Both the position numbers and the translations under genes were made by a program. A DNA stretch of 64,000 bases from Pseudobacteriovorax antillogorgiicola (lineage in GTDB: Bacteria > Bdellovibrionota_B > Oligoflexia > Oligoflexales > Oligoflexaceae), in NCBI RefSeq assembly GCF_900177345.1, contig NZ_FWZT01000003.1, positions 62,001 through 126,000 of the forward strand, in the 5' to 3' direction. Positions 20,825 to 26,863 of this stretch are shown here, one piece after another (position 1 is the stretch's first letter; each line of letters opens with the position of its first letter). The notes under the pieces were generated by a model. That model was not told the DNA's origin. It searched no databases and worked only from the letters and a program-made list of their open reading frames with translations.

Positions 20825-21940
20825 ATGTTCTCACGTTCTTTAAAAAGAATTGCACTGCTATTGGGCATGACCTTCTTCATACCGACTATCCTATCTGCTG
20901 CTGATAGTATCAATCGTTCAAAAAGCTACCAGGCGATCAATAAGCTAAGCAAGCAGTTCGCAGAGGACATTGAGGATTACGGCTCCGTCGCGAACACTGT
21001 AGTGGTTACTGAGTTTAGCCAAAGCAGCGCCTTTGAAGCAGACCTGAGATCCTACATGGTCTTCAGTCTGGAGCAAGACCTCCAAGAGGCTAAAAATGAT
21101 GCCAAAGAATCTTCAGAAGATTCTGATAAAGAGAAGGATGATGAAGATTCTGAGAAAAAAGCTTCAAAGCCAAAAAATACATTTAAGTTTGTTCGTTGCT
21201 TTGGTTGCTTTAAGCCAAGAGCCATCTCTGATGGTAAAGATATTTACATACGCAAGGGCTTCGCAGACAACAATGAGCTAAAATTTGCCTTGGAAAAGAT
21301 TGGTGCTGACGCTTATATGACAGTGAATCTTGATAATAATGGCGATGAAGTTGTCATGCAAACTTCACTGTTCAGCACCAAAGATTCAAAGCTACTGACT
21401 TCAAAAGAGTACCGAACCACAGTCCAAGGCCCATCCCGCTCGGGTGTTGTCATGGGAATCGGAATGCAGTCCGCATCCTTCCACGACAGCAAGCTACCTT
21501 CTGTGATGGGTGCGCGCATCTCCATAGGTCAACGACTTGTTGGTCTAGGTGATATGGGTGTTGCTGTGACCTACCTAGGGAAGAACAGTGGATACCCAAG
21601 CCAAACAACCTTTAGCCTTTTCACAGACCTAAACCGAGCAGAAATCACCGGTGATCAGGGTAAATATGTCAACTGGCTGTTTCCAATCGATTTCGGTGTG
21701 ACTGACTTTAATGGCGATGTTCAATTCCAGCTGCAAGCTGGGGTTAAGATGCGCCTTGGAAGCATCCTCTATGTAAGCTTAACGGAGCGACAGCACGTTT
21801 TCCTTACCAAGCCTAGAAATGATGGTGAAGTGAAAGGAACTGAGCCAGTGGAGCCTGAGGGGGATGACGTTCTTTTCGAAAGTGATAAACCGATCTCGGG
21901 CGCTTTGATGTTTGGCGTCGGTGTAGACTTTACATTCTAA
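20825..21940 (+). CDS. Exported outer-membrane barrel protein with CsgG/FlgO-like N-terminal domain
   Basis: 371 aa from the ATG at 20825 (a TTG directly before it at 20822 is also possible). A Sec signal peptide ends near ILSAA. The N-terminal domain (about 30-200) has the look of CsgG/FlgO-type domains: a VVVTEFSQSSAFEADLRSYMV segment, an acidic Lys/Glu-rich insertion (about 75-110), then ALEKIGADAYMTVNL and a LLTSKEYRTT strand. The C-terminal 150 residues alternate polar and hydrophobic residues and end in GVGVDFTF, with the terminal Phe of outer-membrane barrels. The FlgO/CsgG comparison is a weak structural impression. First gene of the motor operon; AAGGAG of the next gene follows the stop. 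Confidence 0.65.
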   Translation: MFSRSLKRIALLLGMTFFIPTILSAADSINRSKSYQAINKLSKQFAEDIEDYGSVANTVVVTEFSQSSAFEADLRSYMVFSLEQDLQEAKNDAKESSEDSDKEKDDEDSEKKASKPKNTFKFVRCFGCFKPRAISDGKDIYIRKGFADNNELKFALEKIGADAYMTVNLDNNGDEVVMQTSLFSTKDSKLLTSKEYRTTVQGPSRSGVVMGIGMQSASFHDSKLPSVMGARISIGQRLVGLGDMGVAVTYLGKNSGYPSQTTFSLFTDLNRAEITGDQGKYVNWLFPIDFGVTDFNGDVQFQLQAGVKMRLGSILYVSLTERQHVFLTKPRNDGEVKGTEPVEPEGDDVLFESDKPISGALMFGVGVDFTF

Positions 21941-21950
21941 GGAGACTGCA

Positions 21951-22592
21951 ATGAAACATATAGCCCTTATAGTTGCGGGTCTTCTCTCCTCGCAAGCCCT
22001 GTCGGCCACAGGTGTGCTAAAAAAAGTTGAGATTAAAGAGATCTATGAAAATAATGGAGAAATGATCATTGAGACTGAAAAAGGGGTCCATCGCATCAAG
22101 ATCGATGACGCCCTAAAAAACGAGTCTAGCTATGACATCAAGCTTCATGAGCGAAACTTCATCGATGACGAGAGCCAGTTTATTCTAAGGCGTGAACTGT
22201 CATTAAAAGAAAAGACAAAGCTCACTCGACTTCTATTCAACGCTAAGTCTGACTATAGCAAACGAAATTTTGAAAAGTCACTAAAGCAAGTTGACGAGGC
22301 CTTAGATATTGATCCATGGAATTTTGAACTCTTCAACATGAAGGGATCAATCATGTACATGATGGGCTCTCCAGAGTTAGCCCTAAAATATTGGCAAAAA
22401 TCGATCTTGATCAATGAAAATCAAGAGAAACTAAAGAGCACCATTGCTAAAGTTGAGAGCGAGATTCCTGCGAAGACCGAAGAAAAGACCATAGTCTTAC
22501 CGGCTAGCAATGAGGACGCTGTGGATGAGGAGCCTTCTGAACAGGCACCAAAGCTAAAAATCAAGAAGACTGAAGAGGTTGCGAAAAAATGA
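21951..22592 (+). CDS. Periplasmic TPR protein
   Basis: 213 aa with a Sec signal peptide (cleavage near ALSA), AAGGAG seven bases before the ATG, and a four-base overlap with the next gene. Residues about 95-160 form two TPR-like helical hairpins (LLFNAKSDYSKRNFEKSLKQ, ALDIDPWNFELFNMKGSIMY, MGSPELALKYWQKSILIN). The C-terminal tail is charged and disordered, ending in a Lys-rich segment. TPR units are protein-binding, so this may be a periplasmic assembly factor joining the outer-membrane protein and the FliF-like ring protein. That role is inferred from position. Confidence 0.7.
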   Translation: MKHIALIVAGLLSSQALSATGVLKKVEIKEIYENNGEMIIETEKGVHRIKIDDALKNESSYDIKLHERNFIDDESQFILRRELSLKEKTKLTRLLFNAKSDYSKRNFEKSLKQVDEALDIDPWNFELFNMKGSIMYMMGSPELALKYWQKSILINENQEKLKSTIAKVESEIPAKTEEKTIVLPASNEDAVDEEPSEQAPKLKIKKTEEVAKK

Positions 22593-24232
22593 TAGCATTT
22601 AATAAGAGTTCATTTTTAGTGATGATCACTGCCTTTTCATACTGCTTCCAAGTTCTAGCTCAAAGTGAAAAACTTTCTGAGCAAATTCGATCCGACTTGG
22701 TAAAAGATATTTCAAGCTTGATCAGTGACAATGAGTTCCACCTTATCGTCTCCGCATCGAGTTCTGTTGAACGGGAGAAAGTTCTCCAAAAGGATGATCA
22801 GCAAGGTCAACGTATCGAAGAACCTGAACAAGAAGAACTTCCTCCTGGCTTACCAGGTTTTGGCGATGTGGTTGAGCAGAAGAAACCGGCACAAGCGAAA
22901 AAGGTAGATTATAAGGAAAGCTATACTTACAAAGAAACTACAAAGATTAATGAAATCCTCGTTAGATTTCTCGTCTTAAGTTCAGTTTCCGATGAAACCA
23001 CAGCTTTAGCGAAAACGATTATTTCAGAAAAAATTAGTCGTATCTATGGCGTGAAGCCAAACGTCCAACTCGTTAAGACGGACAAACTATTTCCTAATCA
23101 AAAAGAAGAACTCGATACTGCAACTTTCCTAAAAGAATTCCTAAACGGCTACGCCGGCAAAATTGTACTTGGAATCCTAGCTTTTATTGCACTCCTGATC
23201 ATTCTCATAATGATTTCAAAGCTTTTGAAAGAGCTTAAGAAGCTCGGCGATAAGTCAAAGTCCCTATCGGAGTCAACTTCTAATCCGGCATTGGCAGAAA
23301 AAGATATTTTTGAAGCTAATCAAGAGCACATTACCAAGATTCTAGAGTTTTTAACGAGCAATCCACTGCTCGGCCGGGAATTTCTACAAGGTTTAAACTT
23401 AGATCAAGCAAGTGCACTCTATGCTGCGGTGAGCACCAAGAAAAACAGAGAGCTTCTCGCTCGTAACTTCTCCTTTATGGAAACTGAGCTCCTTAAAAGT
23501 GGAGATAAGGCTGGCAATGAGTCATCAACCCTAGCATCATTGGCTGTTGAAGTGGAACACTTTCGAAAAATTCACGAAGCGCAGTCACAGCAACGATTCG
23601 GATTTTTGTCTCTCCTTTCAGGAACCGCAATCCTTGACCTGATACCGGAGCAAGATAAGTTTAGCAATTTGGCGGTCGCTTTTAAGTATCTGAATGGCAG
23701 TCAAACAGCAGATATTCTAGCCACTCTGAGCAATGATGAAAAAGCCAAGCTCATCCAAGGCATGGGTGCTAAGCGTGATGATGCAACGATAAACAGAGTC
23801 GAAGGAGCTTTGAAGGCTGCCTATGAGCAATCGAGGTTGTCTGCTCACGAAACATCCAAGAATGAGATCAATCAAATCAAAGAGATTTTGAATGCTGATC
23901 TAAACGCCAAGGAAACCTTAGCGAGCCTTGAAGCTGGTGGTATGAAGATTCCTGCGGCGCTTATGGCTTATAAGCTTAGCTGCCGTGACATTCTCATGCT
24001 GGCAAAGGAAGAGCTATCAAAAGTACTAGAAGGCCTGGAAAACGAAGACCTTGTCGCTGTAATTAGCAAGTATAAGGATATTTCTAGCAATATTTTGGAT
24101 AGTTTGAGTCCTGTAAGAAGACAGGTTGTTGAAGGAATGGCTCTTTCTTTTTCAGCTACCGAAGACCAGTTGAAGCAATCTCAGATGAACCTGCTTCGAA
24201 GCTACAGAATCACTTCAGGAATAGGTGAATAA
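22589..24232 (+). CDS. FliF-like/FliG-like fusion: putative rotor ring protein
   Basis: 547 aa. Visible parts: signal peptide or first membrane segment (1-24); periplasmic domain (about 25-185) resembling the FliF ring-building and collar region, with an acidic loop, a PPGLPGFG element, then YKETTKINEILVRFLVLSSV; a single transmembrane helix (about 191-213); a charged linker; and a cytoplasmic helical part (about 240-547) resembling FliG middle and C-terminal domains. The end carries a torque-helix-like stretch (CRDILMLAKEELSKVLEGLE at 465-484, then DLVAVISKYK and SPVRRQVVEGM). In flagella FliF and FliG are separate MS-ring and C-ring proteins. Here one chain would hold the rotor ring and its torque-receiving surface. 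It sits directly before motA and motB with overlapping ends. The similarity is my reading of motifs, not a search. Confidence 0.7.
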   Translation: MIAFNKSSFLVMITAFSYCFQVLAQSEKLSEQIRSDLVKDISSLISDNEFHLIVSASSSVEREKVLQKDDQQGQRIEEPEQEELPPGLPGFGDVVEQKKPAQAKKVDYKESYTYKETTKINEILVRFLVLSSVSDETTALAKTIISEKISRIYGVKPNVQLVKTDKLFPNQKEELDTATFLKEFLNGYAGKIVLGILAFIALLIILIMISKLLKELKKLGDKSKSLSESTSNPALAEKDIFEANQEHITKILEFLTSNPLLGREFLQGLNLDQASALYAAVSTKKNRELLARNFSFMETELLKSGDKAGNESSTLASLAVEVEHFRKIHEAQSQQRFGFLSLLSGTAILDLIPEQDKFSNLAVAFKYLNGSQTADILATLSNDEKAKLIQGMGAKRDDATINRVEGALKAAYEQSRLSAHETSKNEINQIKEILNADLNAKETLASLEAGGMKIPAALMAYKLSCRDILMLAKEELSKVLEGLENEDLVAVISKYKDISSNILDSLSPVRRQVVEGMALSFSATEDQLKQSQMNLLRSYRITSGIGE

Positions 24233-24236
24233 TAAC

Positions 24237-25016
24237 ATGAAAACCTCATTACAAATGCTACTATCACTCAGTGGCTTCGCATTAATCTTTGCCTCTCTAT
24301 ATCTTGGAGTCTTCGTTCTCGATGGGGTGAAACCTATCGCCTATTTTCTTCATTACCCTTCACTTCTAGTGGTTCTGGGTGGAGTTGTCGGTATCGCACT
24401 TAATACCTCCCATTGTGCGATCCTAGCTGAAATGGCTAGAAACTTAGTCATGAAGTCTGCTAGTGGCATGCGTCAGCGGACGAATACAGTAGACTCCCTA
24501 CTAGGCGAGTTAACCGATATCTACTATAAGGACGGTCCTCAGGGAATCAGTAAGAAAATTGACGAAGATAAGAATTTTGGATCTACTTGGAAGATGGTTG
24601 CGGAAAAATTAGAGGCTCGCATAGCCATTCCCGATATTAGATTAATTGTCGAACTCAAGAAGCGGCGACTACTCGCTGCTTTGAATACCCAGATTGCTTT
24701 GCTCCGAAAACTTTCTACACTCGCTCCGGCTTTCGGTATGTTTGGTACCATACTAGGCCTAGTAAAGCTTCTCGGTAACCTCCAAGATTTTTCGTCGATT
24801 GGCCCTAATATGTCTCTAGCACTATTGACCACCCTATATGGTATTTTCATTGCTCAAGTGGTCATTGGCCCACTGGTAGCGAAGCTAGAAAACCTAAAAG
24901 TTGAGAGAACTAAGAATACTGAGCAAGTACTGCTTTGGATCTATATGATTGAGAATCGTAAGCCTGCTTTCTATTTAGAATCTTCGCGAAAAACTCGTTC
25001 ACGGGTGAAAGCATGA
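24237..25016 (+). CDS. motA: MotA-like stator protein
   Basis: 259 aa from the ATG at 24237, which has AGGTG ten bases upstream; a GTG at 24225 overlapping the previous gene is the alternative. Four membrane helices in MotA arrangement: two near the N-terminus (about 8-30 and 40-56), a cytoplasmic loop of roughly 100 residues, then two more (about 158-180 and 190-215). Characteristic motifs are STLAPAFGMFGTILGLVKLL, with the conserved Pro of the ion path, and MSLALLTTLYGIFIAQVVIGP. The cytoplasmic loop is rich in Arg/Lys and Glu, as needed for contact with a FliG torque helix. MotA forms the rotating or stationary pentamer around two MotB. Start of the next gene overlaps its stop. Confidence 0.9.
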   Translation: MKTSLQMLLSLSGFALIFASLYLGVFVLDGVKPIAYFLHYPSLLVVLGGVVGIALNTSHCAILAEMARNLVMKSASGMRQRTNTVDSLLGELTDIYYKDGPQGISKKIDEDKNFGSTWKMVAEKLEARIAIPDIRLIVELKKRRLLAALNTQIALLRKLSTLAPAFGMFGTILGLVKLLGNLQDFSSIGPNMSLALLTTLYGIFIAQVVIGPLVAKLENLKVERTKNTEQVLLWIYMIENRKPAFYLESSRKTRSRVKA

Positions 25017-25690
25017 TAAACCCACAAGATGACCTATTCCTCAATGATGTAGAGGAAGACCTGGAAGACGATGGGGCCTCCAACGAAGGCTGGCTAACAA
25101 GCTTTGGTGACTTAATGAGTCTCCTTCTTGTTTTCTTTATCCTTCTTATGTCGGCATCTAAAGTCAGCACTGTAAAGTTTGAGCAGGTTAAAAACGCAGT
25201 GACCGGCAAGGTTCAGGACGGTGAAGTCAACCTGATTACTTTAGCCGAGGAACTTAATAAACAAATCAAGAAAGCCGACCTCGCCGACAAGGTCACAGTC
25301 GATCTTACCGACGAATCTGTCGACTTAGTTTTTCATGAGTCACTTCTATTTAAGTCTGGTAAGGCAGAGATTATTGAAGAAAATAAAGCCATCATTCATG
25401 AAGTGATAGCTGTATTAAAAAACATACCAGACTACACCAGGATCACCGTCGAAGGACATACCGACAATGTTCCTATCCGAAGTGCCAGATTTCGCAATAA
25501 TTGGGAATTATCTTCGGCGAGAGCATTGGTCATCGTCCAAAGCTTAGAAGATGTTGGCTTCCCTGGTAATAGGCTAGCCCTCCAAGGTTTTGGCAGCAAT
25601 CGCCCCCTTGTCCCTAACCTTGATGACGAAGGTAATCCTATTGCTGAAAACCAACGACTAAACCGACGTGTGGTAGTGAGGGTACATTGA
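25013..25690 (+). CDS. motB: MotB-like stator protein with OmpA-type peptidoglycan-binding domain
   Basis: 225 aa. An acidic cytoplasmic N-terminus (1-26) leads into the single membrane helix WLTSFGDLMSLLLVFFILLM with the ion-binding Asp33 in the expected place. A plug/linker region follows (about 50-100), then an OmpA/MotB peptidoglycan-binding domain (about 105-225) with LLFKSGKAEI, VEGHTDNVPI, NWELSSARA and LNRRVVVRVH. All key residues of an ion-driven, wall-anchored stator are present. With MotA it should use proton or sodium flow to drive the adjacent FliG-like rotor. Overlaps motA by four bases. Confidence 0.92.
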   Translation: MINPQDDLFLNDVEEDLEDDGASNEGWLTSFGDLMSLLLVFFILLMSASKVSTVKFEQVKNAVTGKVQDGEVNLITLAEELNKQIKKADLADKVTVDLTDESVDLVFHESLLFKSGKAEIIEENKAIIHEVIAVLKNIPDYTRITVEGHTDNVPIRSARFRNNWELSSARALVIVQSLEDVGFPGNRLALQGFGSNRPLVPNLDDEGNPIAENQRLNRRVVVRVH

Positions 25691-25962
25691 TGAAATTGAT
25701 CTATCTGATTAGTCTAGTCTTCATGACATCTTGTGTCACAAAAAAGAGCCCTTACAGGGATCCACCTCACGTAGAGAAATTGCCTGATCCCGCTTTCTTT
25801 CATTTTAGCAAGTGGGATTACAAGTGCCTCCCTTTCAAGAAAATGAATCCTGCACTATGGGAAGATGCCCTCAATTTTTACGGCAATAAAGGCTGGGAAT
25901 TAGTTGGCTTCATGACCCATAAAGGCCAAACATCCGCTTACTGCTTGAAGAGGAAAAGATAG
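25690..25962 (+). CDS. Small lipoprotein, DUF4177-like
   Basis: 90 aa from the ATG at 25690, which overlaps the motB stop codon. A lipoprotein signal peptide ends in FMTSC. The mature part (FSKWDYKCLPF ... ALWEDALNFYGNKGWELVGFM) has the aromatic pattern of DUF4177, a small beta-alpha domain that often begins with W-x-Y and carries GWELV. Two Cys after the anchor may pair. Location in the operon suggests an envelope accessory to the motor, possibly at the outer membrane; no specific function is known. Confidence 0.65.
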   Translation: MKLIYLISLVFMTSCVTKKSPYRDPPHVEKLPDPAFFHFSKWDYKCLPFKKMNPALWEDALNFYGNKGWELVGFMTHKGQTSAYCLKRKR

Positions 25963-25963
25963 T

Positions 25964-26863
25964 ATGAGTAAACTGTTAGCCTTTCTAGTCCTTCTCTCTA
26001 CAAGCGCAGCTCTTTCAGGAGCAGAGATCCCTGATAAGAAACCGCTGAAGGAAACCAAGGTTTTTACCTGCAATGTCCTATTCCCAAATGACAGCGTTGC
26101 TTTTCGGGAGGAAAGAATCTCCGAGTGCTTCACAGAAGTTGACCCCGAACTCATCACCTATATTCACATCGTCTCGACCGCCTCTACGACAGGAACCGCT
26201 GCTTACAATTTAGACTTGTCGGTACGTCGGTCTCAGAAGGTCAAGCGCTTTATCGAGAAGCAATTCCCCAACGTGAAACAGATTCACGAATTTGGTGGCG
26301 GGCAGAACCCTCGCTTTGGTCGACAAGCGAGAATTTTCATTGTCGTTCAGCCAAAAACGGAACAAGAAGCAAAAGAAGAGACTCCAATTGTAATTAAGGA
26401 AGTAGAAATCGAAAAAGAGCTGATTCTTGCCAAAAGAGGAGCCCGGGGCTTAGAGTTCGCCAATCAGATCGGCCTCGCCTGCGTTGATTGCTATGACCTA
26501 GATCACCGATCTTTGGGAGTTAGCCTTCGCAAGCCTATTTTTCTAAAGAATATGCCTAGTATTCGTCTCCTTGGTGGCGTTCAACTCAATCACTTCCAGT
26601 CAGCAAGCAAGAAGGACTTCCAAACTCTTGATGGAGAATTCGGTGCTCGCTATGTCCGTGATATCGAGATATTGAAAGATAGCCAGTGGTTTTGCGGAGC
26701 ATCAGGCCTCGCTGGTTTAGCCACCAACAACGACAAACTAGCGCTCAATGGCGGTCTTCGTACTGAATGTGGATTGGGCTATCAAGGAATTATGGGCAGT
26801 TTCCAATACACGCACTCATATCAAATCGTGCACTTTGGATTCAGTCTTGGCTTTGAAATATAA
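25964..26863 (+). CDS. Outer-membrane protein: degenerate OmpA-like domain followed by a beta-barrel
   Basis: 299 aa with a Sec signal peptide (cleavage near LSGA). Residues about 30-125 resemble an OmpA-type domain: NDSVAFREE, a central HIVSTAST stretch, YNLDLSVRRSQKVKRFIEKQ and FGRQARIFIVVQP. The Arg of LSxRR is kept, but the His-Thr-Asp of the peptidoglycan site is replaced by Ser-Thr-Ala, so wall binding may be lost or altered. After an acidic linker, the last 160 residues alternate as in a small barrel and end in SLGFEI. Last gene of the motor operon; it starts one base after the lipoprotein stop. Confidence 0.65.
   Translation: MSKLLAFLVLLSTSAALSGAEIPDKKPLKETKVFTCNVLFPNDSVAFREERISECFTEVDPELITYIHIVSTASTTGTAAYNLDLSVRRSQKVKRFIEKQFPNVKQIHEFGGGQNPRFGRQARIFIVVQPKTEQEAKEETPIVIKEVEIEKELILAKRGARGLEFANQIGLACVDCYDLDHRSLGVSLRKPIFLKNMPSIRLLGGVQLNHFQSASKKDFQTLDGEFGARYVRDIEILKDSQWFCGASGLAGLATNNDKLALNGGLRTECGLGYQGIMGSFQYTHSYQIVHFGFSLGFEI

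Follow-up and report, generated by a model that had tools for sequence, protein, structure and literature searches.

What kind of machine is encoded by an operon in which a flagellar-like rotor and stator stand together with outer-membrane proteins? The question is raised by seven co-oriented genes in a stretch of 64,000 nucleotides from Pseudobacteriovorax antillogorgiicola (assembly GCF_900177345.1, contig NZ_FWZT01000003.1, positions 62,001 to 126,000), here called the window; their products are, in order, an outer-membrane protein, a periplasmic tetratricopeptide repeat (TPR) protein, a fused FliF/FliG-like protein, MotA, MotB, a small lipoprotein and an OmpA-like protein (genes 1–7; see Table 1). 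A first-pass annotation of the sequence had described seven genes with overlapping or nearly touching ends and had seen in them a self-contained, ion-driven envelope machine; all seven open reading frames were found where it had placed them, on the forward strand and with intergenic gaps of 10, -4, -8, -4, -4 and 1 bases, and its reading of the machine is supported, the output being approached by inference. The operon very probably encodes a dedicated, flagellum-independent, ion-driven rotary envelope motor, a judgement that covers the non-flagellar rotor-stator machine and not its output. The parts are flagellar homologues, and there is a fair chance that the whole deserves the name of a separate machine class; as a rotary envelope machine it is probably of a kind not described before, and no description of a non-flagellar FliG/MotAB machine was found in the open-access literature, a scope that leaves subscription journals and most preprints outside.

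The fused rotor protein, the stator and the envelope partners

The product of gene 3 is composed of a signal peptide, a FliF-RBM3-like ring domain, a single transmembrane helix and a FliG-like N/M/C array, and it is confirmed, by family profiles and by structure, as a natural fusion of FliF RBM3-like and FliG-like parts. The signal peptide, read from the sequences of gene 3 and its orthologues, replaces the first FliF helix, and a long C-terminal half following one strong membrane helix is common to all of them; of the features of the FliF MS ring, only the RBM3-like domain and one transmembrane helix were found in gene 3, RBM1, RBM2 and the first of the two FliF transmembrane helices being absent. 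Searches with the single sequence were uninformative (no phmmer match in the PDB; in Pfam, a sole sub-cut-off match to MgtE_N with 22.6 bits), so that the link to FliG required family profiles. A profile built from six orthologues and searched in 383 genomes domain-wide matches, over its positions 342–555, the ordinary FliG of about 340 residues from many families (E values down to 6.6e-24); the FliG_C family (PF01706) scores above its cut-off in four orthologues, and the comparison by hhalign of the gene 3 profile with flagellar FliG of the same order gave 95% and an E value of 3.7e-8.

The evidence for the FliF half comes from the wider family and from structure, since the likeness is invisible in the six closest (type-I) sequences, for which hhalign against FliF was unsuccessful (E 0.12); similarly, PF08345 gave no match to the gene 3 family in ten genomes at an E value of 1e-3. 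The profile-profile comparison of the periplasmic halves of 25 family members with the RBM3-TM2 region of FliF gave 95.5% (E 1.6e-8), the controls (FliF RBM1/2, gene 1 and MotB) giving 0.1–0.5%. In the AlphaFold2 model (mean predicted local distance difference test, pLDDT, 74.5), a helix extending to residue 41 is followed by a strand (50–66), a disordered loop (68–110), a strand (112–130), a helix (135–153) and a strand (158–164), and then by the transmembrane helix and the helical array, where the pLDDT is near 90 at the end; this order of the periplasmic fold, with its long disordered loop, is like that of the split RBM3 described for FliF of Salmonella (PMC6079021). When the model was compared by Foldseek with 350,542 PDB chains, ranks 1–30 were all FliF or FliG (E 1.2e-4 to 0.11), directly followed by the RBM protein SpoIIIAG. 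A structural match to FliF and FliG, on which the first-pass annotation had made its reading depend, is thus given by both Foldseek and profiles, and the FliG-like C-terminus that it had recognised is borne out by the profile, hhalign, PF01706 in the orthologues and structure alike.

Clear Pfam matches are confined to MotA, MotB and the OmpA-like domain of the latter, those in the rest of the operon being weak. MotA (MotA_ExbB, 67 bits) finds the solved flagellar MotA/PomA structures at the top of the PDB (best 8gqy, 82 bits; TolQ, 20 bits), and in NCBIfam MotP/PomA rank above TolQ, no equivalog cut-off being reached. In a tree of 44 A-subunit sequences the ExbB/TolQ-type rows split off at 100/99, and the MotA of the window and its six orthologues form a 100/100 clade with a long stem on the flagellar side; as to the origin of the fused FliG rotor, at least two changes are needed on this tree. 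The proline motifs of MotA, earlier called intact, hold in part: the proline of the third transmembrane helix (P168) is invariant among the seven orthologues, and that of the fourth is present in the window protein without being invariant in the others. MotB matches MotB_plug (50 bits) and OmpA (61 bits), in agreement with the peptidoglycan-binding domain assigned to it before; the ion-binding Asp33, also noted then, is real and is kept in related MotB proteins. The framework for flagellar-type (FIT) stators published in 2025 characterises them by torque interface, plug and peptidoglycan-binding domain, and links these traits to flagellar motility (PMC12505986); the operon has a MotA of the flagellar clade and a MotB with plug and OmpA-like peptidoglycan-binding domain.

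Gene 1, previously called a barrel protein, may now be described more closely as having a signal peptide, a TolB-N/LpoB-like periplasmic domain (about residues 58–184) and a C-terminal barrel of the 8-strand type; by its model (pLDDT 67) and Foldseek the periplasmic part resembles the TolB and LpoB folds and the remainder OmpA/PagL-type 8-strand barrels. A CxxC motif, both cysteines of which are invariant in seven orthologues, sits in the periplasmic domain. The TPR match in gene 2 and the OmpA match in gene 7 are below the Pfam cut-offs; homologues of gene 6 stand after MotB in three relatives, and in two relatives the homologue of gene 7 is placed in the divergent gene cluster described below. 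Promoter and terminator scans gave about as many sites as shuffled sequences, and therefore no transcript ends are claimed.

Occurrence with and without flagellar genes

The block of barrel, TPR, FliF/G, MotA and MotB genes is complete, in the same order and on the same strand, in five genomes (G026, G015, G033, G022 and G019; identity to the window about 20–45%) belonging to three other families of the order, a conservation far beyond chance; in G038 the arrangement is split, the first three genes being divergent from MotAB. Full-length type-I gene 3 is found in 7 of 43 genomes of the order, in four families, and in only one of the seven genomes of the window's own family. A second subtype of the fused protein (565–694 residues, most with a coiled coil before the transmembrane helix) adjoins MotA, MotB and TPR lipoproteins of small size in a number of genomes of the class; the window's own genome has such a second system (L079). 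Outside the phylum, the FliF/G gene adjoins MotA and MotB in G124, G129, G266, G139 and G180, and a fused gene is present in G246, G100 and G175; the fused protein of G124 scores 127.8 bits with TIGR00207 (fliG), its N-terminus weakly matching spore_III_AG.

The first-pass annotation had left standing the possibility that the genome of the window lacks flagellar FliF, FliG and MotAB of its own; separate genes for FlhA (C23), FliF (C25), FliG (C33), FliM/FliN (C23) and other MotA proteins were found, so that the genes of the operon are not missing flagellar parts. Neither FlhA nor FliM/FliN (PF01052) was found in G026, G008, G038, G124, G129, G266, G100 and G139, all of which carry the fused gene; in G026 (93% complete), in which YscJ_FliF_C was not found either, the only FliG_C match is the gene of the operon. 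The operon itself is devoid of genes for FliM/N, export gate, rod, hook and filament, and the term "filament-less", used in the first-pass annotation, is supported for the operon and for its FlhA-less relatives.

Judged from its sequence, then, the operon does not encode a flagellum: a FliG-type rotor with a MotAB stator is there, and three defining features (a full FliF, an export gate and a switch) fail. It shares with the flagellar motor the RBM3 ring domain, the FliG N/M/C array and flagellar-type MotA and MotB, and differs from it in that the FliF and FliG parts are joined in one short protein, without RBM1/2 and the first FliF transmembrane helix, and in having outer-membrane proteins of its own. 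Engineered FliF-FliG fusions assemble rings (PMC6079021; PMC11481574), which makes a fused rotor mechanically plausible; as in these engineered or mutant proteins of Salmonella and Vibrio, MS ring and C ring would be covalently linked, whereas the fusion of the operon is natural, retains RBM3 only and belongs to a separate operon. A FliF/FliG rotor with a FIT stator in genomes without export gate and switch shows that flagellum and torque core are separable, and bears on the origin of the latter, the core being either reduced from a flagellum or an independent motor lineage; one rotor protein and two stator proteins would also provide biophysics with a minimal, compact pair.

A proposed motor and its alternatives

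We infer the assembly, rotation and torque path of the machine as follows. MotA and MotB would form a flagellar-type stator that MotB anchors to peptidoglycan and that is driven by an ion flow past Asp33, its push being exerted by MotA on the FliG-like C-terminus of the gene 3 product. This product would assemble in many copies into one ring, with a periplasmic RBM3 collar joined through the single transmembrane helices to a cytoplasmic FliG ring; rotor and collar, being covalently linked, would turn together. In the flagellum, RBM1 and RBM2 surround and house the export gate; their absence from gene 3 fits the absence of export genes, and the ring would form an open collar, not a platform for export. 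Since several genomes have no FliM/N, a CheY-type switch would find no docking site there and one-way rotation, or another switch, is predicted; direction switching of the flagellar kind is probably absent. Torque might then pass from the collar to the TPR protein, to the TolB/LpoB-like domain of the gene 1 barrel and to the outer membrane, where the machine would move surface proteins or help to export them, the surface work being the least certain part of the scheme. It seems rather likely that a widespread, unrecognised class exists, in which single-chain FliF(RBM3)-FliG rotors and flagellar-type MotAB, without type III export, drive outer-membrane outputs that differ between lineages and serve to move surface proteins or to secrete them; a surface machine is thereby predicted in an understudied group of large-genome bacteria.

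Several points weigh against a dedicated rotary motor. The case is one of sequence comparison and structure prediction; the FliF similarity is undetectable with type-I sequences alone; and the gene 3 model has a predicted template modelling score of 0.33, so that domain placement is uncertain and cannot be read from it. In alignments read by eye, the torque charges of E. coli (MotA R90/E98, FliG D288/D289) are missing from the window proteins, an R-D-E pattern being retained at the FliG torque helix in some relatives (L019, L070); the rotor-stator interface must therefore differ, and is probably private to each rotor-stator pair. The surface partners vary between lineages, which blurs the output, and the genomes in which flagellar genes appear to be absent are drafts, 84–98% complete; gaps may explain one or two of the eight absences, hardly all of them.

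Among the other explanations, it is quite improbable that gene 3 and MotAB are a flagellar accessory or spare set, that is, alternative stator and rotor parts of an ordinary flagellum: flagellar genes do occur elsewhere in the window's genome, and FlhA is present in the type-I relatives G019 and G022, but the fused gene also occurs in the relatives without FlhA, FliM and FliN, its product is without RBM1/2 and starts with a signal peptide where FliF has its first helix, the operon brings its own outer-membrane proteins, and the type-I MotA forms a clade of its own. An energiser of the Tol-Pal or Ton kind, in which MotAB would move outer-membrane proteins directly and gene 3 would be a static scaffold, is suggested by the TolB/LpoB-like domain of gene 1 and the OmpA-like domain of gene 7; it is improbable in view of an A subunit whose scores with MotA/PomA far exceed those with TolQ, of the flagellar-type cytoplasmic loop region and peptidoglycan-binding B subunit, of the FliG-type partner, which is what such a stator pushes on, and of the lack of any TolA or TonB homologue seen in the operon. 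That the operon serves in anti-phage defence, like Zorya, is highly improbable; MotB does match ZorB models, which might be true of any MotB, and no matches to ZorA, ZorC, ZorD or ZorE were found in the operon proteins, the partners of which are outer-membrane and periplasmic proteins instead of nucleases or helicases, in a core block whose order is kept across several families. Both Zorya (ZorAB) and the operon have MotAB-like ion-driven motors outside flagella, the operon having a rotor protein and no effectors; the distinction from Zorya drawn in the first-pass annotation therefore stands.

Not exclusive of a dedicated rotary motor, and rather a variant of it, is the doubtful proposal that the same core serves, in a type IX-like manner, to secrete or assemble lipoproteins and repeat proteins of the surface and not to move the cell. 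It draws on a PorV/UPF0164-like barrel and a giant FN3 protein with a weak Por_Secre_tail match in G124, on weak barrel-family matches (TraF_2, DUF5723) after MotB in G026 and G019, and on the repeat lipoproteins beside the window operon; the Por_Secre_tail and PorV matches are, however, below the Pfam cut-offs, and no translocon candidate was identified in the window. With type IX secretion and GldLM the operon would share an ion-driven motor of the 5:2 type acting on outer-membrane or surface proteins and, in some relatives, PorV-like barrels. GldLM is described as similar to MotAB without being homologous to it, and neither for this system nor for any other motor does a 2026 review of gliding mention a FliG- or FliF-like rotor (PMC13104615); no Gld-specific Pfam or NCBIfam matches were obtained for the operon proteins, the genome itself not having been searched for Gld homologues. 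Stator homologues and envelope-spanning partners are shared with the Agl-Glt machinery, from which the operon differs by its flagellar-type stator with a FliG-type rotor; AglRS of Myxococcus fall in a generic transporter clade (PMC12505986).

Neighbouring genes and related loci

Upstream of the operon, the conserved neighbourhood extends onto the reverse strand, where most proteins of the divergent cluster carry lipoprotein-type signal sequences (Table 1). A pentapeptide/LRR/S8 cluster adjoins the operon in three genomes; L017 and L018 have pentapeptide and gene 7 homologues and LRR proteins at its flanks, with an S8 protease in L017, and giant Ig-domain proteins stand beside the systems of L110 and L079. 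From this recurrent company of surface proteins a surface output is proposed, and a gliding- or secretion-like coupling to surface proteins is put forward tentatively on the strength of these neighbours; gliding, movement of surface proteins and envelope mechanics, which the first-pass annotation had suggested, are candidate outputs.

Table 1. Positions in the window of the operon, its genes and sites, and the genes of the divergent cluster (aa, amino acids)
Feature	Position	Strand	Basis or remark
Seven-gene operon	20825-26863	+	co-oriented, nearly overlapping open reading frames
Gene 1, outer-membrane protein, 371 aa	20825..21940	+	alignment, AlphaFold2 model, Foldseek
CxxC of gene 1, Cys125-Cys128	21197..21208	+	alignment of seven orthologues
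Gene 2, periplasmic TPR protein with signal peptide, 213 aa	21951..22592	+	Pfam, conserved neighbourhood
Gene 3, fused rotor protein, 547 aa	22589..24232	+	profiles, hhalign, AlphaFold2, Foldseek
Split RBM3-like domain of gene 3, residues 24-164, disordered loop 68-110	22658..23080	+	AlphaFold2, Foldseek, hhalign
Single transmembrane helix of gene 3, residues 192-210	23162..23218	+	
FliG-like helical array of gene 3, residues 233-542	23285..24214	+	profile, hhalign, AlphaFold2, Foldseek
Gene 4, MotA, flagellar-type stator subunit, 263 aa	24225..25016	+	Pfam, PDB and NCBIfam matches, tree
Gene 5, MotB, plug and OmpA-like peptidoglycan-binding domain, 225 aa	25013..25690	+	Pfam, NCBIfam
Ion-binding Asp33 of MotB	25109-25111	+	sequence, kept in related MotB
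Gene 6, small lipoprotein, 91 aa	25687..25962	+	weak DUF4177/Sp36 match
Gene 7, OmpA-like domain then C-terminal barrel, 299 aa	25964..26863	+	Pfam, relatives
Propeller-like lipoprotein, 359 aa	19383..20462	-	WD40-like match only, E 0.08
Pentapeptide-repeat lipoprotein, 584 aa	17632..19386	-	homologues beside operon in two relatives
Leucine-rich-repeat (LRR) protein, 253 aa	16916..17677	-	LRR proteins beside operon in two relatives
Predicted coiled-coil lipoprotein, 301 aa	16014..16919	-	
Lipoprotein with subtilase (S8) and VWA domains, 1425 aa	11758..16035	-	

Some related loci have partners of other kinds. In G124 (L104:8517-12941), the FN3-rich protein (1474 residues) and the PorV/UPF0164-like barrel precede FliF/G on the same strand, hinting, as far as sequence goes, at a type IX-like cargo; in G129 (L105:138-6873), a FliF/G with a C-terminal TPR-like domain is followed by a protein of 1282 residues and of unassigned kind, MotA and MotB. 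FliG_C matches in G298 and G317 were set aside, the family models having given no fused FliF/G there. A MotA scan of genome contigs gave, among the matches listed, mostly ordinary flagellar MotA or TolQ and one useful locus, L128, labelled Silvanigrellales.

The genome of the window (G000) has 18 matches to the MotA/TolQ/ExbB family, a large set of ion-driven motors. At L079:4128-8327 (C22) it encodes a TPR lipoprotein, MotA, MotB and a fused rotor-like protein of 565 residues, in the vicinity of a giant Ig/FN3 protein, which is divergent, and of a pentapeptide lipoprotein. At L077:5872-12701 (C4), MotA, MotB and an SF1/AAA_11 helicase-like protein of 1432 residues that matches defence models, with a gene of 361 residues ahead, make up a possible Zorya-like defence locus, in which no ZorA model match was obtained. 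Besides the flagellar FliG on C33, a second, stand-alone FliG paralogue of 331 residues is encoded at L067:7653-8648 (C14), and second FliGs are seen in several genomes of the order. Finally, an 818-residue protein at L066:6090-8546 (C2), near genes resembling pilM/N/O/P, apparently has two RBM-like domains, with a transmembrane helix and FliG_C; ten genomes of the order were tested, and most of them encode a FliG_C protein of about this length.

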